43,062 nucleotides of DNA from Pseudobdellovibrionaceae bacterium (GTDB lineage Bacteria; Bdellovibrionota; Bdellovibrionia; Bdellovibrionales; UBA1609), in contig JANXMF010000214.1 in assembly GCA_025354795.1 (NCBI GenBank), forward strand, positions 1 through 43,062, given 5' to 3'. This document shows, piece after piece, positions 1 to 8,907 of the stretch. The notes below the pieces were generated by a model. It was given only the letters and a program-made list of their open reading frames with translations, was not told where the DNA came from and searched no databases. How positions within the stretch are numbered: position 1 is the stretch's first letter; each line of letters starts with the position of its first letter. The translations under genes were made by a program, and so were the position numbers.

Positions 1-342
1 AAGCATGTAGCGCTTGCCGCCGCCAGCCTCGTAACAATTGCCGATGCTCACGCCGTCTGCATAGAATGAACCTTCCGGTCCATGTTCGAACAATGGGCTG
101 GCGTGCTCGTTGACAATCTCTCTCGTCACGATATCGATATCAACGGCGCCCACTGAAGAGCGGTCTTCACGATCGCGTCCACTATAGAAAACCCGATAGA
201 CATCGTTCGCCAAATGTATCGGCAAGGGATTGGCGGCATGAGACAAAATTTTTGGATGCCGATGATTTCCGGAGGGTACGTAGAGCAAGCCTAATTTTCG
301 CCATTGTTTTTTCAAGACGCCCACAACCTTTGATCGCTGCAA
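1..342 (-). CDS. GH130-like glycosidase/phosphorylase (N-terminal part, runs off the left edge)
   Basis: An open frame of 114 codons on the minus strand continues past base 1. It reads like the first blades of a five-bladed beta-propeller of the GH130/GH43-like group: an early WRKLGLLYVPSG segment, then VYRVFYSGRDREDRSSVG and a GSFYADGVSIGN segment. Such proteins are common in bacterial polysaccharide gene clusters, where their substrate is usually unknown. An in-frame TAA lies just upstream of the TTG at 342, so the protein starts at that TTG or at the GTG at 324. Neither has a convincing ribosome binding site. It is transcribed away from the glycan operon that follows. Coding is likely; the family call is from motif resemblance only. 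Confidence 0.5.
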   Translation of the reverse strand, partial: MQRSKVVGVLKKQWRKLGLLYVPSGNHRHPKILSHAANPLPIHLANDVYRVFYSGRDREDRSSVGAVDIDIVTREIVNEHASPLFEHGPEGSFYADGVSIGNCYEAGGGKRYML

Positions 343-518
343 TAGTTAATAGTCCAAGTTTGGAGTGATTTGGACAAAAACTCCGATTTCGTGGCGCGTT
401 AAGAGTGAAAAATTCACTGCCGCGAACTGTAGATCGGCGTTAGATTTCGAGGTTTTAGCGCTCTTATCAGAAAGTTGAGATTCGTATTCAATCCAGTTCA
501 CCGCCCAAAATTAGTGTT

Positions 519-1430
519 GTGGTTCCCGTATACGGCTGCCGCAGCTGTCTCGATGAACTTTGCCGCCGGTTGGGCCAAACTCTCAGCCCAATGACTAAGA
601 CCTACGAAATCCTTCTTGTCGACGACTGTAGTCCTGATCAGGCCTGGTATTCGATTGTAGAATTGCAAAAAAAATACCCTGAGGTCAAAGGCTTGAGATT
701 GAGCCGGAATTTTGGTCAACACATCGCCATCTCCGCAGGCTTAGCCGAAGCGAAGGGCGATGTTGCGATTGTTATGGATTGCGATTTACAAGACCCCCCA
801 GAAAGAATCCCTGAGATCTACGCAAAACTTCTTGAGGGTTACGATTTGGTTTTGGCGCGGCGGACGAAAAAACATCATTCATCTTTTCGGGTGCTCGCTG
901 CCAAAACTTATTTTTATTTGGTCTCCTGGCTCAATCGAAAACCGATAGAGGGCTTTGGAACTTTCTCGATCCTGTCGAGAAAAGTCATCGATGCATTTTT
1001 GCTATTCAACGAACGTGAACGCCACTATCTCTTTATCTTAACATGGCTCGGCTTTCGCGCCGGTGTCATCGACTATGTCCATGAGAAACGTGCGAGTGGC
1101 AAAAGTTCGTACTCAGTACGGCGGCTAATTCAGCATGCAATCGACGGGCAATTCTTTCAAGCGACACAGCTGCTCAATTGGATCGTTGTCCTCGGACTGC
1201 TTTTCGCGGCCGGCGGGGTGGCGATGGCCGGCTTTTTTATCGTTCGCTATTTTGTTGAAGGCTCGCAACCCGGCTGGACAAGTTTGTCAGTGCTTATTTT
1301 GATTTGCACCGGCGCCATTTTGACCAGCTTAGGAGTTATTGGCGTCTACGTCGGCAAAGTTTTTGACCAAGCGAAGGACCGGCCGCTGTATGTGATTGAC
1401 CAGGTTTCGGAACGGGGTGTGCGATGGTAA
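519..1430 (+). CDS. GT2 polyprenyl-phosphate sugar transferase (GtrB/ArnC/DPM1-like)
   Basis: Family 2 glycosyltransferase that probably moves a sugar from a nucleotide sugar to undecaprenyl phosphate at the inner membrane. The GT-A fold is visible: VDDCSPD near residue 35 and the metal-binding MDCDLQDPPE near residue 87, then the NFGQ segment typical of the DPM1 group. Two hydrophobic segments follow near residues 219-245 and 255-280, as in GtrB and ArnC. The only standard start in frame, GTG at 519, cuts off part of the first beta strand. The frame stays open to a TAG at 456 and encodes the expected KISVVVPVY strand, so the true start may be further up at a rare codon (ATT at 480 or 486). 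It is the first gene of a plus-strand operon, overlapping the next gene by 7 bp. Confidence 0.88.
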   Translation: MVPVYGCRSCLDELCRRLGQTLSPMTKTYEILLVDDCSPDQAWYSIVELQKKYPEVKGLRLSRNFGQHIAISAGLAEAKGDVAIVMDCDLQDPPERIPEIYAKLLEGYDLVLARRTKKHHSSFRVLAAKTYFYLVSWLNRKPIEGFGTFSILSRKVIDAFLLFNERERHYLFILTWLGFRAGVIDYVHEKRASGKSSYSVRRLIQHAIDGQFFQATQLLNWIVVLGLLFAAGGVAMAGFFIVRYFVEGSQPGWTSLSVLILICTGAILTSLGVIGVYVGKVFDQAKDRPLYVIDQVSERGVRW

Positions 1431-2056
1431 AAAATGACGAACTCCTGCGCGAAGTCGCCAGTTATTACTCCGATAAAATAATCCAGTTTGGTGAGTCACC
1501 ACGCGGCGTGGACTGGAATAGTGAAGACGGCCAAGTTTTGCGCTTTAAACAACTGTGTAAAGTGATCGACCTTACTCGCATGTTTTCCGTAAACGATCTG
1601 GGCTGCGGCTATGGAGCTCTTTATGATTTTCTAACCCTGCAAATGAGCAATTTCACTTATTGTGGGATAGATGTTTCTGCGCAGATGGTTCAAGCGGCCA
1701 GCTCCCGGCATAACGGCCTCCGCTCGCGGTTTTTGCTGGCCGAGAAGCCCGACCAAGTCGCAGACTACGGGATCGCCAGTGGGGTTTTTAACGTCCGGCA
1801 GCAACGCACTGATGCGGAATGGGAATCCTATTTGAAAGCAAGCCTTGATATTTTAAATGAATCTAGCCGCAGGGGGTTTGCATTCAATGCCCTGACGTCC
1901 TATTCAGACGAGGATAAAAAACGCGCCGACCTCTACTACGCCGACCCCTGCGCTTTATTTGATTTTTGCAAGCGCAAGTATTCTCCCCAAGTTTCACTTT
2001 TACATGATTACGGGCTATACGAATTTACTATTTTGGTCAGGAAGTTGCCGCTATGA
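1424..2056 (+). CDS. Class I SAM-dependent methyltransferase
   Basis: A 210-residue protein with a Rossmann-type SAM-binding core. Motif I is NDLGCGYGAL at residues 57-66, and the acidic residue ending strand 2 is in GIDVS at 81-85. An N-terminal helical part contains GESPRGVDWNSEDGQ, a segment typical of methyltransferases found in polysaccharide clusters. The ATG at 1424 lies inside the end of the glycosyltransferase gene (7-bp overlap), with a GGGG-type ribosome site just upstream. Its stop overlaps the next ATG as ATGA, so translation is coupled on both sides. The position suggests that it methylates a sugar or sugar precursor of the same glycan; the acceptor cannot be read from the sequence. 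Confidence 0.82.
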   Translation: MVKNDELLREVASYYSDKIIQFGESPRGVDWNSEDGQVLRFKQLCKVIDLTRMFSVNDLGCGYGALYDFLTLQMSNFTYCGIDVSAQMVQAASSRHNGLRSRFLLAEKPDQVADYGIASGVFNVRQQRTDAEWESYLKASLDILNESSRRGFAFNALTSYSDEDKKRADLYYADPCALFDFCKRKYSPQVSLLHDYGLYEFTILVRKLPL

Positions 2057-2718
2057 GAAAAAAATTAATCGTTTTCGGCTCGGGCGACATTGCCGAGCTT
2101 GCCTATTATTATTTTTCGACCGATTCAGATTTTGAAATCGCAGCGTTTACAGTGGACCGCGCCTATCTGAAGGAAACGCAAATTTGCGGGCTTCCCGTGA
2201 TTGCATTTGAGGAAATTCACACGCAATTCCCTCCTCGCGAACACCAAATGTTCATAGCGCTCAGTTATTCGAAAATAAATGCCCTGCGCAAAGAGAAATA
2301 CTTCAAGGCTAAAGAAATGGGTTACAAGCTCACCAGCTATATTAGCTCCAAGGCCACACTCTTAAACGAAGGCCACATCGGGGAAAACTGCTTTATCCTT
2401 GAGGACAATACGATCCAACCTTTTGTCAAAATCGGCAACAACGTAACGCTGTGGTCCGGCAACCACATTGGTCATCACTCCACCATCGCCGATCACTGTT
2501 TTATCGCCTCCCACGTCGTGGTTTCTGGCGGCGTTGAAATCGGCGAATCTTGTTTTATCGGGGTCAATGCAACACTGCGTGATCATATTAAAATCGGTGA
2601 ACGATGCGTCCTTGGTGCCGGCACGCTATTGCTCGCAGATGCGGAGCCGGACGGCCTCTATATCGGCAGCGCGACGGCGCGCGCCGATATCTCAAGTGCG
2701 AAACTCAAAAAAATCTAG
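2053..2718 (+). CDS. NeuD/PglD-family sugar O/N-acyltransferase
   Basis: A 221-residue protein with the two-domain layout of NeuD and PglD. The N-terminal nucleotide-binding half begins with VFGSGDIAELAYYYF (residues 7-21). The C-terminal half, from about residue 100, is a left-handed beta helix made of hexapeptide repeats (IGENCF, VKIGNN, IADHCF, VEIGES, IKIGER). The GNHIGHH segment at 136-142 holds the histidine pair expected for acyl transfer from acyl-CoA to a sugar amine or hydroxyl. Start ATG at 2053 overlaps the previous stop as ATGA. It probably acetylates the sugar handled by this operon. The family call is strong; the donor and acceptor are unknown. Confidence 0.87.
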   Translation: MRKKLIVFGSGDIAELAYYYFSTDSDFEIAAFTVDRAYLKETQICGLPVIAFEEIHTQFPPREHQMFIALSYSKINALRKEKYFKAKEMGYKLTSYISSKATLLNEGHIGENCFILEDNTIQPFVKIGNNVTLWSGNHIGHHSTIADHCFIASHVVVSGGVEIGESCFIGVNATLRDHIKIGERCVLGAGTLLLADAEPDGLYIGSATARADISSAKLKKI

Positions 2719-2720
2719 CT

Positions 2721-4397
2721 GTGCACGCCAATAGGAAGATCTTTTCATTCTCAGTCTCGCTTTTTGTCATTGGCGTTTTGTACCTTCTCGTACAACGGCT
2801 TTTTTTCGGCGTGGATCTGCAAGACGAAGCTTTTTATTGTGCCCTTCCCAAATCTTTTGCCGAGGGCCGAATTCCTTTTCGCGAAGAATTAAATGGCGCT
2901 CAGGCCGCGGGCATTTTGCTGACTCCCTTGGCCAGTCTTTTCCTGCTATTTTCTGCAAAGGCGGAGGGAATTGTTGTTTTTTTTAGAATAACTTACTTTC
3001 TAAGCCTGTGTGGGCTCAGTTTTTTTGCTTTCGAAAAAATAAAAAAACATATTCCGGTACTCGAGGCGCTGCTCGCGGCTTTGCTGCTGCTCAGCTTCTG
3101 GCCTTTTGCGATTCCCAGCTTAAGCTACAACACGATGGGTGCGCTATTTTTAAACTGCGGACTGTTGGCACTCTTCAGTCAGGAAGAAAAAAAACAAATG
3201 GATTGGCGCCTGCCTGTGGGACTGTTGTTCTTGGGTACATCCGTATTTTGCTACGTGACACTCATCTTACCCATTGCCGTCGCCCTCGGCCTGTTTTTTA
3301 GGTTTTCACGCAATAAGAAATGGCCTCTCCCGAGCCGCGTGGCCTCGGCCACGGTGCTGGCCGGATTCATATTGCTCGCGTTATATCTCACGTTCCTTTA
3401 CATCGGGATGGCCCGTCTCGGATTGATATCACATTACATAGATTCTTTTGGAGATACCGGGGGTGGACTCAAAAAATTTCTGGTTCTCTTTGCCCAACTC
3501 AAACACAACCTCTTATTTGTGTCCTTGATAACTATTGGGACTTGGCTGATCATTTTTAGCGCAAAACGTATTCCTCAATTGGCGATTCTCTTGACCCTTC
3601 TTTTAGGCTGGAGCCTTTTCCGCTTTCCCTTCGTGATAACGATTCTCCCGTTTCATCTTTCAATTCTAGCCTACACCCTGACCGGTTTGCCCATGGCCTT
3701 GGACCGAAAACGAGAACAGAAATTTCCTTTCTGGCGTTCGGTGAGCCTGATTTCGTGCATGTTCGGAATTGTTTGCGCTTGGTCCAGTTCCAATGGACTT
3801 ACAAATTTCGCGGTTATGTCGTCCCTAGGAATTCTCGGAGGCGCCTGGTATATCAGCGATTCGCTGAACGGCCGAGGCTTGACGGCGAGGGCGGCGGGAG
3901 TCCTTCTCCTCGGGATCTTTTTAACATTTCAAGTTCGATCCCTTTACACCAACGTTTACGGCGACGATTCCAATCTGAAACTCCTTAATCGCATAGTCAC
4001 AAGCGGGCCTTATCGCTTTCTTAAGACCAGCCCCGCCAAAACCGAGTTTATCGATACTCTAAGCTCCGACCTCGGAAATTCCGTGCCCGATGGTGTCGCT
4101 TTTTATGAATCTTTCGTTTCCGGATATTTGTTTACAAATGCGAAAATCAAAGCACCGACGTTATGGGCGTACTCCTTAAAACAAGGCGGGTATGATCGCG
4201 AAATTTTCGCACGCTTTTACCAAGACCCGGAAAACCGCCCCGAGACTCTCTTCTGGCTCCACACCCTTCCAGTTTTGACCGGCTTTGAGGAACACTTGGA
4301 CCATGAACTTCCCGATCCGTTAAAAAATGAAGTGGCGGCCCATTATGGATTAAAATCGAAAAGCAAATACTACTCTATCTACCAACGCAAAGACTGA
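2721..4397 (+). CDS. Multi-pass membrane glycosyltransferase, GT-C/GT39-like
   Basis: A 558-residue integral membrane protein with about 11-13 hydrophobic segments and a soluble C-terminal part from about residue 440. After the first segment comes a loop with GVDLQDEAFYC, matching the acidic loop-1 motif that GT-C enzymes use to bind lipid-phosphate sugars. I chose GTG at 2721, which lies two bases after the stop of the NeuD gene; the frame is open further upstream, but only across that gene. There is no strong ribosome site, which fits coupled translation. Paired with the GT2 gene upstream, it resembles the GtrB/GtrC division of labour: one enzyme loads the lipid carrier and the other transfers the sugar in the periplasm. 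No GtrA-type flippase is visible here. The final acceptor is unknown. Confidence 0.7.
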   Translation: MHANRKIFSFSVSLFVIGVLYLLVQRLFFGVDLQDEAFYCALPKSFAEGRIPFREELNGAQAAGILLTPLASLFLLFSAKAEGIVVFFRITYFLSLCGLSFFAFEKIKKHIPVLEALLAALLLLSFWPFAIPSLSYNTMGALFLNCGLLALFSQEEKKQMDWRLPVGLLFLGTSVFCYVTLILPIAVALGLFFRFSRNKKWPLPSRVASATVLAGFILLALYLTFLYIGMARLGLISHYIDSFGDTGGGLKKFLVLFAQLKHNLLFVSLITIGTWLIIFSAKRIPQLAILLTLLLGWSLFRFPFVITILPFHLSILAYTLTGLPMALDRKREQKFPFWRSVSLISCMFGIVCAWSSSNGLTNFAVMSSLGILGGAWYISDSLNGRGLTARAAGVLLLGIFLTFQVRSLYTNVYGDDSNLKLLNRIVTSGPYRFLKTSPAKTEFIDTLSSDLGNSVPDGVAFYESFVSGYLFTNAKIKAPTLWAYSLKQGGYDREIFARFYQDPENRPETLFWLHTLPVLTGFEEHLDHELPDPLKNEVAAHYGLKSKSKYYSIYQRKD

Positions 4398-4409
4398 AGG
4401 AGAGCCCCA

Positions 4410-5201
4410 GTGCTGAATTCGATTCGCGAGTCATTGGAAAAGGACGGTTATGCGATCCTTCCCACCGTGCTTAAGCCTGATTTTTTAGCGCGCACCAAGA
4501 AGGTGATGCGCGCGGTTCAAGTTCAAATTGAAGCCGAAGTGGGAAGTGATCGCCTCCAGCGTGCCGGTGAAAGGGGCGTGCTTCGCCTGATGATGAAGTT
4601 TAGTCCGCAGTTTTTCACACTGCTCGAAATTCCAGAAGTCTTAGAAGTGATCGATGAGATGCTCTCACCCACGGCTATCTTGCATTTGCAAAATGGATTT
4701 ATTCTTCCCTCCCTGCCGGCCGAGGAGCGCGAGAACGTAGCGCAATTTCAATTTCACCGCGATTTTCCCCGCTATATGAATGGCTATCGCGCATCGCTCA
4801 ACTTCCTTTTTGCAATTGACGAATTCACCGAAAACAATGGCGCCACCTTGGTGGTTCCGGGATCGCATCGTAAGGCCAAGCCGCCGCCTGATGCCTACAT
4901 GCAAAAAAACGCGGTCAAGGCATTTTGTCCGGCCGGCGGAGTGATTGTTTTTGATTCCATGCTGTGGCATGCGGCCGGCAACAATACTTCGGGCCAAGAC
5001 CGCTTTGCGATCAATCACCAGTTTACCCGCTCGTTTTTCAAGCAACAGTTCGATTATGTACGCGCGCTCGGTGAAAATACGGTGATCGGGCTACCGCCAC
5101 GAAGCCAGCAATTTTTGGGTTATTACACGCGGGTGGTGAGTTCTTTAGATCAATACTATCAGCCCGAAGAAAAGCGCCTTTACCGGCGCCACCAAGGCTA
5201 G
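4410..5201 (+). CDS. Phytanoyl-CoA dioxygenase (PhyH) family protein
   Basis: A 263-residue Fe(II)/2-oxoglutarate dioxygenase of the PhyH family. The iron ligands can be placed: H116 and D118 in FQFHRDF and H187 in SMLWHAAGNN. R198 in the RFAIN segment fits the 2-oxoglutarate carboxylate contact. The GTG start at 4410 has a clear AAGGAGAG ribosome site and lies 12 bp after the previous stop, so the gene belongs to the glycan operon. PhyH enzymes hydroxylate diverse small molecules and are sometimes found in sugar or lipid tailoring clusters, so a hydroxylation of the glycan or its lipid is plausible but not shown. Its stop codon overlaps the stop of the convergent methyltransferase gene by 4 bp (CTAG). 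Confidence 0.83.
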   Translation: MLNSIRESLEKDGYAILPTVLKPDFLARTKKVMRAVQVQIEAEVGSDRLQRAGERGVLRLMMKFSPQFFTLLEIPEVLEVIDEMLSPTAILHLQNGFILPSLPAEERENVAQFQFHRDFPRYMNGYRASLNFLFAIDEFTENNGATLVVPGSHRKAKPPPDAYMQKNAVKAFCPAGGVIVFDSMLWHAAGNNTSGQDRFAINHQFTRSFFKQQFDYVRALGENTVIGLPPRSQQFLGYYTRVVSSLDQYYQPEEKRLYRRHQG

Positions 5202-5977
5202 TGATCGACTTTGGCGATTGCCAGCATCGTCAGACCTAAGCCTGTTCGATAAAAGAGCCGCTGCACTAAAAACAACGGATAGAGAGTGTAGCGATTCAGC
5301 ACAACCGAAAAAAAAGCCGGGAACACGGTCTTAAACGGAATTTCACGAATGCCGCTGGTTTGCGTTTGCTCATTCATACTGAGGCTGCGTTTTTCGACTT
5401 CCTTGGTTCTGCGAATCAGGAAGTTCCCAATGTGAAATAAAATATTAGCCACCGGCACGGCCACCGACCATACCAATTCATCGGACAAACTCGCTTTTTT
5501 CAGTACGTCTTTGAGATCTTGTCGGTCGTATCTGCGGAAATGCCCGACCGTCTCGTCCTCAATCCCCCAGCGGTCGCGGCGACCCGGAACAGCTACGAGC
5601 ACATGCCCGCCGGGCCGTACATGACGAGCCATGTTTTTAAGAAACTGAACGTCATCTTCCACATGTTCCATAACCATCATGGACATCGCGACGTCGAACT
5701 GGCGCGAGGGTTCGGAATATTCACCAAGTTCCGACTCCACCAAACTGTAGAGACCCTTATCGATAAATTCGCGCATCTTCTCTCGCCCGGCTCGAATCGC
5801 AGGCGGCGAAAAATCGATTCCCACACCCTGTAGCCCCATCTTACACAGCTTATAAGAGAGCTCCGCGGCGCCACAGCCAACCTCCAAAAATGAACGCGCA
5901 CCTGAATTTTGAATCATTTCAAAGACAGCTTCGTGATGGCACCAAGTCCCGGGAGGATCAATTCTGATAAATTTCAC
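5198..5977 (-). CDS. Class I SAM-dependent methyltransferase with C-terminal hydrophobic segment
   Basis: A 259-residue methyltransferase. Motif I is FLEVGCGAAEL at residues 30-40, followed by VGIDFSPPAI and a VMEHVEDD segment (motif IV region), then RPGGHVLVAVPG. The C-terminal 60 residues are hydrophobic and basic and may associate with the membrane. I chose the GTG at 5977, which gives the start MKFIRIDPPGTW. A GTG at 6022 would add 15 cysteine-rich residues and has only a weak GAAG site, so the start is uncertain. The gene converges with the PhyH gene, sharing a CTAG stop overlap. It probably belongs functionally to the glycan block, but the substrate is not visible. Confidence 0.8.
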   Translation of the reverse strand: MKFIRIDPPGTWCHHEAVFEMIQNSGARSFLEVGCGAAELSYKLCKMGLQGVGIDFSPPAIRAGREKMREFIDKGLYSLVESELGEYSEPSRQFDVAMSMMVMEHVEDDVQFLKNMARHVRPGGHVLVAVPGRRDRWGIEDETVGHFRRYDRQDLKDVLKKASLSDELVWSVAVPVANILFHIGNFLIRRTKEVEKRSLSMNEQTQTSGIREIPFKTVFPAFFSVVLNRYTLYPLFLVQRLFYRTGLGLTMLAIAKVDH

Positions 5978-6000
5978 GTAGTCACAATAACAGGAGACGC

Positions 6001-6060
6001 ATGAGTCAGCAAGAAAGAGCACAGAGCTACTTCAAAATCGCGGCTACAGATCGCCAATGA
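6001..6060 (+). pseudogene. 19-codon ORF with a strong ribosome site, possibly a truncated gene
   Basis: An AGGAGA ribosome site precedes ATG 6001 at ideal spacing, and the frame runs 19 codons (MSQQERAQSYFKIAATDRQ) to a TGA. The start signal is much better than its length. It may be the head of a gene cut by an insertion or deletion, or a short leader peptide. No continuation could be recognised in the other frames downstream. The ORF lies opposite the possible extended N-terminus of the neighbouring methyltransferase. Confidence 0.25.
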
Positions 6061-6310
6061 CCGCCATGTGCGGGCAAAGGTGACAGGCCCAAAAAATGCG
6101 CAATTCTCGAACATCATGGCCGGAAAAGACCAAACACTTCAAAAGATTGTCCGCCTGCTTAGACCAACTCAAGGCCATTTTTTTCATTACACCAAGTGCG
6201 TAACTTGCGAAAAGACTAAGTCTTCAACTCGTGGTCAGATCCCTAGCGGGAAATCAATGCTCGACAAGCCGTTCATGGATTTTAGAGGCAATTAAAACCA
6301 TTGCCTTCTT

Positions 6311-6340
6311 TGCCCACTGCTTGCCCAGTGAATGCCCACT
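6311..6340. repeat. Three 11-bp tandem repeats, TGCCCA(C/G)T type
   Basis: Units begin at 6311, 6322 and 6333: TGCCCACTGCT, TGCCCAGTGAA and TGCCCACT. The first six bases are identical and the spacing is exactly one DNA turn. Such helically phased repeats near a tRNA 3' end resemble arm-type binding sites of tyrosine integrases. The function is inferred. Confidence 0.6.
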
Positions 6341-6344
6341 AGAG

Positions 6345-6374
6345 CCGTTATTTTCGGTTATCTTCTGTTATTTT
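6345..6374. repeat. Three 10-bp tandem repeats, C(C/G/T)GTTAT(T/C)TT
   Basis: Units are CCGTTATTTT (6345), CGGTTATCTT (6355) and CTGTTATTTT (6365), directly adjacent. They begin four bases after the 11-bp repeat block and lie about 90-120 bp beyond the tRNA-Cys 3' end. Together the two blocks look like a second kind of integrase or excisionase arm site, or an iteron-like protein-binding array. Confidence 0.6.
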
Positions 6375-6464
6375 TAAAAATGCGGACCCAGCTAAGTCAT
6401 TGAATCCATTTGTGATTGATTTTGCGGGTTTGGGCTAGAAAAGCGAAACTTGATCGCAGACGAT

Positions 6465-6538
6465 TGGAGGTGGCGAGCAGATTCGAACTGCTGTAGCCGC
6501 TTTTGCAGAGCGGTGCCTGGCCACTTGGCTACGCCACC
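6465..6538 (-). tRNA. tRNA-Cys (anticodon GCA)
   Basis: The minus strand folds as a complete cloverleaf: acceptor GGTGGCG pairs with CGCCACC; D arm GCC/GGC; anticodon arm CCGCT-CTGCAAA-AGCGG with anticodon GCA; T arm AGCAG-TTCGAAT-CTGCT. The discriminator base is U, the identity base of tRNA-Cys, and CCA is encoded. The gene lies alone, with tandem repeats beyond its 3' end. Confidence 0.95.
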
Positions 6539-6580: not shown

Positions 6581-7975
6581 TCACGCGAAAAGCTGTCGGA
6601 TGGCGTTCATTGGAGCTTCCACTCGCAAAAAGGCCTCGTGGTAATGATGGCTTTTCACTTCGCAGCTGGATTCGAAATCGGCAAGACCTCTAGCCACCCG
6701 CATTAAAGCGTTTCGACGACGGTGACTCACTTCCAAGTCATCTACCCAAGTAGGTACCCGTTGTGTGATTGGACCCCGGGCTTTGGCGAATGCAGTCAAA
6801 CGCTCGACGATCTTTTTGGCCTCTTCCATGGTGTGGCGTTTTCCTTTTCTAAGCCAGCTGTGGCTAAAGACCACCATGTCAAAGCGGTCCATGATCGGTC
6901 CGCTGAGGCGTGCGCAAACTGAGCGGCAGTGGGTGAGGCTGCGTGAACAGGCGTGGGGTCTGTCGGGACTTAGATCAAGTTTTCCGCAGGGACATAAATT
7001 GGTGGTGGCAAGCAGTTGGAAGTTGGCGGAAAAACGCGCTCGTTCACCGCAACGCGCGTGTTCCACAGATCCGTTTTGCATGGGCTCGCGCAAGGCTTCG
7101 AGCACTTGCGCATTGAATTCCAGAAATTCATCCATCACCAGAACACCGCCGTGCGCACGCGAAATCACGCCAGGCACTATGGGGACGCCGCCGCCGATCA
7201 TCGCGAGCGGAGTGATCGAATGGTGTGGCTGCTCAAACGGGCGCCACGCATTTTCCAAAACGCTATTGCCAAACATATCTTGCAACTCGGCCATTTGCTC
7301 GGCGCAAGGCGCGGGTGATAGAGAATAGGCCGCTTTGGCCCAGGTGGATTTGCCAGAGCCTTGCGGCCCCGCCACCAAAACGTTCAAACGCATGTGCGCG
7401 GCCAACCATAACTCCGAAAGTGCGCGCGAGTGCAGATCAAGTGCCATGAGAGGCGGGGCCTGCCAGTAGTTTTGCCAATCAAAAGCGCGACGATTCACTT
7501 TTAGTTCGGGCTGGTTGAGCGTGGCCAGCGACGACCAGGTCCCATCGCGTACGCTCTCATCGGCTTCGCCAGTGATTAAGTGAGGCGCAAAGGCCAGTGC
7601 CCGCGCGAGATCAGGAGGAGCGAAGACGCGTCCGTCGAGGCCGACCTCTCCGTACACCACGCTTTTTATAAGCGCTGGTAAAATGTCCTTGGAAATCTGT
7701 TTGGTCAGCGCCAGAAATCCAAGAGCGATGGCCAGATCAATACCGGCGCTGCTTTTGCGAAAATATGATGGCCTCAGGTTGACCACGATCTGATGTCCCT
7801 TGGGCCACAGGAAGCCGCAACTGCGGAGCGCTGATTTTAACTTAACGCCGCACTCGCGGATATGGGCGTCGGGCTGTCCCACTACCTGTAAAATTGGAAT
7901 GCCCGGCAAAAGTTTGATTTCCACCTCGCCGAAAGAAAACTCACCTTGTTGTTGAAAAAGTGTGCGTACACGCAT
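6581..7975 (-). CDS. comM: ComM/YifB-family Mg-chelatase-like AAA+ ATPase
   Basis: A 464-residue protein of the ComM family. In naturally competent bacteria ComM is a hexameric helicase that extends heteroduplex during uptake of foreign DNA. The N-terminal ChlI-like domain covers about residues 5-125. Walker A is GPQGSGKST at 203-211 and Walker B is GGVLVMDEF at 276-284. A cysteine-rich NLCPCGK segment and the LSGPIMDRFDM sensor region follow, as in ComM. It is somewhat shorter than the usual ~500 residues. Start ATG 7975 was chosen because MRVRTLF matches the family start; a TTG at 7984 is the alternative, and neither has a good ribosome site. The Xer-type recombinase gene ends 50 bp upstream on the same strand. 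Confidence 0.9.
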   Translation of the reverse strand: MRVRTLFQQQGEFSFGEVEIKLLPGIPILQVVGQPDAHIRECGVKLKSALRSCGFLWPKGHQIVVNLRPSYFRKSSAGIDLAIALGFLALTKQISKDILPALIKSVVYGEVGLDGRVFAPPDLARALAFAPHLITGEADESVRDGTWSSLATLNQPELKVNRRAFDWQNYWQAPPLMALDLHSRALSELWLAAHMRLNVLVAGPQGSGKSTWAKAAYSLSPAPCAEQMAELQDMFGNSVLENAWRPFEQPHHSITPLAMIGGGVPIVPGVISRAHGGVLVMDEFLEFNAQVLEALREPMQNGSVEHARCGERARFSANFQLLATTNLCPCGKLDLSPDRPHACSRSLTHCRSVCARLSGPIMDRFDMVVFSHSWLRKGKRHTMEEAKKIVERLTAFAKARGPITQRVPTWVDDLEVSHRRRNALMRVARGLADFESSCEVKSHHYHEAFLRVEAPMNAIRQLFA

Positions 7976-8025
7976 GACGAGCAAGGTTGCAAAGTGCGAA
8001 CCACGCCCAAAACAAAGGCGGTGGT

Positions 8026-8907
8026 TTAGCTGTCGGAGAGTGTTCGGATTCCGGAGAGTGGATGGTTTCTTTCGACTTCTTCTTTGAGTTTATGCGAAGT
8101 CACGCTCGCATAAATTTGCGTAGTTTGAAGACTCGAATGCCCGAGTAAAATTTGAATGGTGCGCAGGTCGGCGCCGTTTTCGAGCAGCGCGGTGGCGCAG
8201 CCGTGACGAAAACGATGGGGCCCGATCGGCTCGGTAAAACCGGCACGTTGTGACCAGGCCGCGAGCCAGCGCCACACGTCGACGCGCGACGGGCGGTGCC
8301 CACGGTCGTTAATAAGGATCGCATTGGTATCGCCCTTGAGCAGATGCGGGCGAATCTCCTTTATATATGTCTTCAGCTCTCCCAGCAGATGTTCAGACAA
8401 GGGAAGCAAGCGTTCCTTGCCTCCCTTGCCGACCACCTTGAGCCAAGCATCGGTGGGGTTGAAATCCAGCAAGCTCAAGCTCACCATTTCGCTCACGCGA
8501 CATCCCAAACCAAACAGCAAGAGCAGTGTGATTTGATTGCGCGCACTCCGCATCGGATCATCCACGCGACAGGCCTCAAAAAGTTGATGAAATTCCGTTA
8601 AAGAAAGGGGTTTGGGCAAATTTGGAGTCACGCGCGGCGGGCGCAGTTCGCGCAACTCGGGCGACTTGTTGCCCTGTAGTTCCAGAAAACGAAAATAGGT
8701 GCGTAAGCTGCTGATCACTCGCGCTTGCGAGCGAGTCGACAATTGGCGGGCCTTCATGTACTCGAAGAAGCGACCGATTTCTTGGCGGGTGGCATGAAAT
8801 TCGGCGTAGAGCTCGAGATCACGACGATAGGCCATTACCGTGTTGTGCGAGCGGCCGCGGACATGTTGCAAATCTTCGAAGAATTCCACCCATAGCTTTA
8901 GAGCCAT
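8026..8907 (-). CDS. Tyrosine recombinase, XerC/XerD type
   Basis: A 293-residue site-specific recombinase. The N-terminal SAM-like core-binding domain covers residues 1-85 and the catalytic domain about 100-285. The full catalytic set is present: R137 in GCRVSE, K161 in GKGGKERLLPL, H231 and R234 in PHRFRHG, H257 in LLGHSSL and nucleophile Y266 in TQIYASV. Length and motifs fit housekeeping XerC/XerD, which resolves chromosome dimers at dif, rather than a phage integrase. Which of the two it is cannot be decided here. The gene lies just upstream of comM on the same strand. A role for it in the repeats near tRNA-Cys is possible but not supported. Confidence 0.9.
   Translation of the reverse strand: MALKLWVEFFEDLQHVRGRSHNTVMAYRRDLELYAEFHATRQEIGRFFEYMKARQLSTRSQARVISSLRTYFRFLELQGNKSPELRELRPPRVTPNLPKPLSLTEFHQLFEACRVDDPMRSARNQITLLLLFGLGCRVSEMVSLSLLDFNPTDAWLKVVGKGGKERLLPLSEHLLGELKTYIKEIRPHLLKGDTNAILINDRGHRPSRVDVWRWLAAWSQRAGFTEPIGPHRFRHGCATALLENGADLRTIQILLGHSSLQTTQIYASVTSHKLKEEVERNHPLSGIRTLSDS

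Follow-up and report, generated by a model that had tools for sequence, protein, structure and literature searches.

The window analysed here is a stretch of 43,062 nucleotides that makes up the whole of contig C77 in the draft genome G000 (3.15 Mb, 243 contigs, 94% complete), and its base 1 is the contig end. Near this end lies a tRNA-Cys(gca) gene on the minus strand, so that its 3′ side corresponds to positions below 6465. On that side we found a module of about 155 bp (6310–6464), which consists of two blocks of short direct repeats followed by a conserved box and which ends on the CCA end of the tRNA, with the end of the profile model described below falling at 6464–6467. The conserved box is a third part of the module that was absent from the initial annotation. 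The coordinates of all features are given in Table 1.

Table 1. Features of the repeat module, its tRNA target and the flanking genes in the window.
Feature	Position	Strand	Remarks
Putative cargo genes	519–6022		GT2 glycosyltransferase, methyltransferase, NeuD-type acetyltransferase, 597-aa protein, PhyH dioxygenase, methyltransferase
Block 1, three 11-bp direct repeats	6310–6340	+	Candidate arm-type sites, which the tyrosine integrase of the element would bind with its N-terminal domain
Block 2, three 10-bp direct repeats GTTATnTTnn	6347–6376	+	Common to many elements; presumed to bind a protein
Conserved box TAAGTCATTGAATCCATTTGTGATTGATTTT (TAAGTnATTGAATCCATTTGTnnTTGATTTT), between block 2 and core	6393–6423	+	From alignments of sites; function putative
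Core/crossover region GATTGGAGGTGG	6462–6473	+	Complementary to the 3′ strand of the tRNA acceptor, including the encoded CCA
tRNA-Cys(gca), target gene	6465–6538	-	Complete and intact
ComM-like Mg-chelatase ATPase	6581–7984	-	Pfam PF01078/PF13541; conserved chromosomal side
XerD/XerC-like recombinase	8026–8907	-	NCBIfam XerD 268 bits, under the cut-off of 329.6; chromosomal housekeeping gene

The genes on the two sides of the module have different distributions. DNA matching comM lies beside tRNA-Cys in several relatives, and at least 10 relatives have the Xer-like gene no more than about 3 kb from tRNA-Cys. The Xer-like gene of the window was rejected as the integrase of an element: it adjoins tRNA-Cys as a conserved gene in many relatives, and its product matches XerD/XerC. 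On the other side, the 597-aa protein (2604–4397) has matches of 26–37% identity in two genomes of the same genus and none in the other 56 relatives, and it has no Pfam, PHROG or NCBIfam match. The element whose end this is would carry the glycan genes in 1–6300 as cargo.

Both repeat blocks were detected by TRF. Block 1 was reported as 2.8 copies of an 11-bp unit at 6310–6340 (TTGCCCACTGC / TTGCCCAGTGA / ATGCCCACTAG), and its units read TGCCCACT at 6311, TGCCCAGT at 6322 and TGCCCACT at 6333. Block 2 was reported as 2.5 copies of a 10-bp unit at 6347–6371, with the units GTTATTTTCG / GTTATCTTCT / GTTATTTTTA, the last of which reaches 6376. When the 265 bp downstream of the tRNA were shuffled locally, none of 1000 shuffles matched the observed score of either block, and when any period of 8–13 bp was allowed, the score of block 1 was matched in none of 300 shuffles. 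TRF and the shuffles thus confirm the two phased repeat blocks that the initial annotation had described near the tRNA-Cys 3′ end. All three copies are intact in both blocks.

The pattern of three 11-bp units was searched in 141 genomes of the order, and a control with the reversed pattern gave no matches. The matches were G102:C47 (beside a tRNA-Cys), G113:C38, G000:C151 in the window's own genome, and a simple TTCCCA repeat on C228. Block 1 occurs with 0–3 mismatches at the tRNA-Cys of G102, at a tRNA-Ser(tga) on G000:C151 and at an integrase junction in G113. At these three sites the likeness to the window covers the 11-bp units, the 10-bp units and the box TAAGTnATTGAATCCATTTGT and continues to the core, almost without gaps. 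The site in G113 adjoins no complete tRNA; it has a short tRNA-Cys end, and a Phage_integrase gene encoding 375 aa has its stop codon 80 bp further on. Genes for FtsK, TrbI-like and ArdC proteins lie near this site.

Two profiles were built to follow the module more widely. R1, a sequence-only profile built from the arm in the window and the three sites just described, matched 49 of the 141 genomes of the order; the arm in the window, itself part of the training set, is its second-best match. R2, built from 27 sites, matched 68 of 144 genomes of the class. Among 78 inspected R2 matches, 51 adjoin complete tRNA 3′ ends representing 12 anticodons, 13 lie at junctions with an integrase 82–793 bp beyond the core, one lies at a contig end, and the other 13 include several partial tRNA ends. 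The model end falls 1–3 bp inside the tRNA, on the encoded CCA, in 45 of the 51 tRNA-adjacent matches. The targets are tRNA-Cys (21), Ser (15, with four anticodons), His (8), Ala (2) and Arg, Leu, Asp, Lys and Glu (one each, the Lys case being doubtful at 78 bp from its tRNA). Because R2 includes just the last three tRNA bases, the adjacency to tRNAs is a largely independent check, even though the training sites had originally been located close to tRNAs or integrases. The genome of the window carries four sites, at tRNA-Cys, Ser(tga), Ser(gct) and His. Nearly identical arms were found at a tRNA-Asp in G003, which belongs to the same genus, and at a tRNA-Ser in G125, which belongs to a different family, and this similarity points to movement between tRNAs and hosts.

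In relatives, the elements have the order tRNA, arm, cargo, integrase and a core repeat of about 10–16 bp, and they are sometimes in tandem. A single contig of G029 carries a tRNA-Cys, an arm of related type, 9.3 kb of DNA, an integrase and a second ACCACCTCCA about 110 bp past the integrase stop codon. The core/crossover stretch of the window is seen again at the integrase end of the intact elements of G029 and G037. G037 has two elements in tandem, with the core and then the second element's arm coming after the integrase of the first; in the tandem of G087 an arm stands ahead of the next integrase, at a distance of 30 kb. In view of these two cases, treating an arm-core-integrase junction as one circular element was rejected as unsafe, and the pairing of an arm with an integrase is uncertain for elements in tandem. 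In the window's own genome, 16 bp (AAATTGGCGGAGAGGG) are common to the integrase end on C166 and the arm end on C151; from this shared sequence, C166 and C151 may be the two ends of one tRNA-Ser element. A different arrangement was seen on G040:C97 (4360–9828), where two arms with the same core lie 5.3 kb apart beside tRNA-Ser and serS. Between them we found no match to the integrase family and recognised none among the ORFs; the two arms may bound an element that relies on an integrase elsewhere.

For the element at the window itself, one well-preserved attachment end is present. The 6.3 kb of contig to the left of the site contain no integrase and no conjugation genes, and a search of the 94%-complete assembly found no integrase with a tRNA-Cys core. 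Six-frame translations of 6022–6310 gave nothing recognisable, and an integrase remnant in that interval was rejected. A search for the distal core with a 15-bp pattern and 2 mismatches gave 14 matches against 8 for the reversed control, with no convincing second core among them. The search of the assembly for a second tRNA-Cys 3′ end, with at most 3 mismatches in 23 bp, also found none. The initial annotation had proposed looking for a 36-bp second copy, a check that is uninformative given the short core repeat of relatives (about 10–16 bp); such a search would fail even for an intact element. The contig ends at base 1, and neither a cognate integrase nor a distal core was found in this assembly, so that 1–6300, which the initial annotation took for a possible integrated element with its integrase left of the window, is at most a candidate for a whole or still mobile element. 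The best of the other core matches is part of a 20-bp exact match between 6455–6474 of the window and G000:C147 (about 44086–44105), which lies inside an intact 879-aa ORF and is probably due to chance, though it is possibly a secondary site. A native left neighbour was also sought through a rhomboid-like gene of G001 and rejected, since this gene is not orthologous in G000 and no attL was found.

These results bear on whether anything at this locus is mobile now. The arm might be the fossil of a decayed or partly deleted element, with 1–6300 being ordinary chromosome or later insertions, and we regard this as a substantial possibility, if the less probable one. The missing integrase, both on the contig and with a tRNA-Cys core elsewhere in the assembly, is consistent with it, as is the G+C content of 1–6300, which differs little from the rest. 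Members of the integrase family in the window's assembly are the gene on C166, which has the tRNA-Ser core, and a truncated copy on C203, and the latter indicates that decay is occurring in this genome. On the other hand, a decaying scar should erode, whereas the arm is well preserved, and the genus offers no close relative of the 597-aa gene. The truncated copy (G000:C203, 4499–5250) matches the first ~223 residues of the integrase and then diverges to a stop codon, and it is not near the contig ends.

To compare the two repeat blocks, 34 sites were anchored on the box and aligned without gaps. The 11-bp units are 82% identical within a site and 33% identical between sites, and the 10-bp units read GTTAT or GTGAT (GTKAT) almost everywhere. 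Such a contrast between the blocks would be expected if each element's own integrase recognised block 1 while a less variable protein recognised block 2. In the arm of G099 (about 1500–1750) the box lies inside a perfect inverted repeat, TAAGTATGCGAAA/TTTCGCATACTTA, which was seen in G099 only; the family integrase of this genome is 54 kb from the arm and has CACTACCA after its stop codon.

On the basis of these patterns, we propose a tyrosine integrase of ~370–410 aa that would contact the three 11-bp repeats through a divergent arm-binding region at its N-terminus, while its core-binding and catalytic domains would hold the core at the CCA end of the tRNA. Block 2 would be occupied, one molecule per helical turn, by an excisionase-type protein (recombination directionality factor) or another accessory protein. 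The box, putatively the site of a DNA-bending or core-proximal protein, and the spacer would be bent so that the arm meets the core, and strand exchange within the core of about 10–16 bp would restore the tRNA. The integrase end of the window's element would lie on an unassembled stretch or have been lost. The assignment of a protein to each block, like the bending, is part of this predicted mechanism.

The roles of the two blocks might instead be exchanged, with block 2 as the arm array of the integrase and block 1 serving an excisionase or repressor specific to the element. In line with this arrangement, two integrases whose N-domains are 71% identical occur at junctions with differing block 1 motifs, and two with 44% identity occur at junctions that share one block 1 motif. 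However, such junctions can be tandem, as in G037 and G087, with the arm and the integrase coming from different elements. In addition, a motif that changes fast between elements yet is identical within an element, as in block 1, is usual for integrase-specific arm sites. We therefore consider the exchange of roles unlikely and retain the assignment of block 1 to the integrase.

The integrase of G113 has 277 relatives in a collection with one genome per species. The best 80 of these 277 are nearly all from Bdellovibrionales, Bdellovibrionaceae, Bacteriovoracaceae, Halobacteriovoraceae or Oligoflexia; the other records among them are some generic Deltaproteobacteria, Proteobacteria and bacterium MAGs and one Lysobacteraceae MAG. 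Judged by these best 80 of 277 relatives, the family is almost confined to Bdellovibrionota. The Lysobacteraceae MAG, which is named outside Bdellovibrionota, carries two family integrases ~27 kb apart on one contig (JAGTJX010000001.1). The integrases of relatives match PF00589 clearly, and their matches to Arm-DNA-bind_4 (20.4, 13.7 and 13.4 bits) are below the cut-off of 22.3.

Attachment sites of this kind are common in prophages, and one viral contig contains a full-length relative of the integrase with 38% identity; the site might thus come from a temperate phage instead of a conjugative or mobilisable island. This origin seems quite improbable to us. Phage and plasmid records show no close relative of the integrase, with at most ~32% identity to the family among the matches listed, the element of G113 has FtsK, TrbI and ArdC genes, and capsid and tail genes were absent from the parts read. 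As for an ordinary conserved element downstream of a tRNA (a terminator or a site of processing or regulation, unconnected with recombination), the position just 3′ of a tRNA gene would fit, but this explanation is refuted by the junction and empty-site data, since the module is found at many tRNAs in different genomes and at integrase junctions away from complete tRNAs, duplicates with short core repeats, and is not present at the tRNA-Cys of G001 and G003 of the same genus.

Taken together, the module abuts the 3′ end of an intact tRNA and has phased direct repeats at a fixed distance from the core. Its presence varies among relatives and among tRNA targets, with none at the tRNA-Cys of G001 or G003 and sites at Ser, His, Asp and other tRNAs elsewhere; G003 has the module at tRNA-Asp and none at tRNA-Cys, where its contig stops 68 bp past the gene and the flank is readable in part. 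A site lies beside an integrase gene in G113 and at 12 other junctions, and not at the window. The role in attachment that the initial annotation had suggested is supported by the whole module at other tRNA 3′ ends and by the arm-core-integrase junctions in relatives. The same annotation had named the presence of the repeats in all relatives alike as evidence against this role, and the relatives G001 and G003 show that the repeats are not so distributed. We conclude with high confidence that 6310–6473 is the attachment arm, at the end distal to the integrase, of an integrative element that targets tRNA genes.

More broadly, we lean towards the view that Bdellovibrionota, among them the predatory Bdellovibrio-like bacteria, harbour one class-wide family of tRNA-hopping elements that is defined by a rigid three-part arm and not by its cargo, that occupies several tRNAs per genome with tandem stacking, and whose arm predicts element ends without an integrase. 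The two short repeats then provide a searchable marker of element integration sites in about half of the genomes of the class, which includes predatory bacteria. Mobile elements of this class are little described in the papers searched. The arm would mark exact element boundaries at tRNA ends even where no integrase is assembled, and one genome can carry four such sites. The comparison of the blocks offers a testable division between element-specific and shared recombination sites, and the combination of a varying motif with a fixed spacing would be a natural experiment on how the arm-binding domains of integrases read DNA.

The genome of the window also contains integrases of other types. Two integrases of one such type, on G000:C161 and G000:C107, each have a pair of GTGGACC repeats spaced by 11 bp and TTGGTTGCGGGG after the gene; TTGGTTGCGGGG on G000:C161 is the 3′ end of a complete tRNA-Met; this is a second, distinct tRNA-targeting system in this genome. 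On G000:C154 (3510–3610), an integrase of a third type has three 11-bp repeats of ATGGGCA type and a pair of the 10-bp TGTAAAAACT just 3′ of it.

A tRNA-targeting attachment arm is a kind of site that is already known. No paper on such sites in these bacteria was found in a literature search that lay mostly outside subscription journals, and the layout of three 11-bp repeats, three 10-bp repeats and a box was not found in the papers searched; a three-part arm that is fixed across a class and has element-specific 11-bp units appears undescribed in them. The nearest parallels are the P-arm and P′-arm of lambda Int and the attP of IntS from ICEMlSym(R7A) (PMC11963761; classification in PMC8138268), which have in common with the present system an N-terminal region ahead of the core-binding and catalytic domains, phased short direct repeats some 125–155 bp from the core, and a tRNA target. 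The IntS attP has five arm-type motifs (PMC11963761). Here, in contrast to both, the repeat unit is element-specific and the spacing of the 155-bp module is fixed across a class. RdfS and BldC bind DNA as head-to-tail multimers, BldC-like proteins with one molecule per DNA turn (PMC11963761). A protein like RdfS or lambda Xis would fit three 10-bp repeats placed between the arm and the core, and by this analogy block 2 could serve an excisionase; a gene of this kind was not identified for the element. As in tRNA-associated genomic islands, ICEs and IMEs, the tRNA is left intact, its 3′ end is partly duplicated, elements accrete in tandem and the cargo is variable; the difference is that the core repeat here measures about 10–16 bp and consists of the CCA, the acceptor strand and a few flanking bases. 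Finally, the integrases of dusA-targeting islands (PMC4482086) are likewise a single family that is spread over many genomes and uses one kind of target, but they target one protein gene, whereas the elements described here use the 3′ ends of tRNAs with about 12 types of anticodon.
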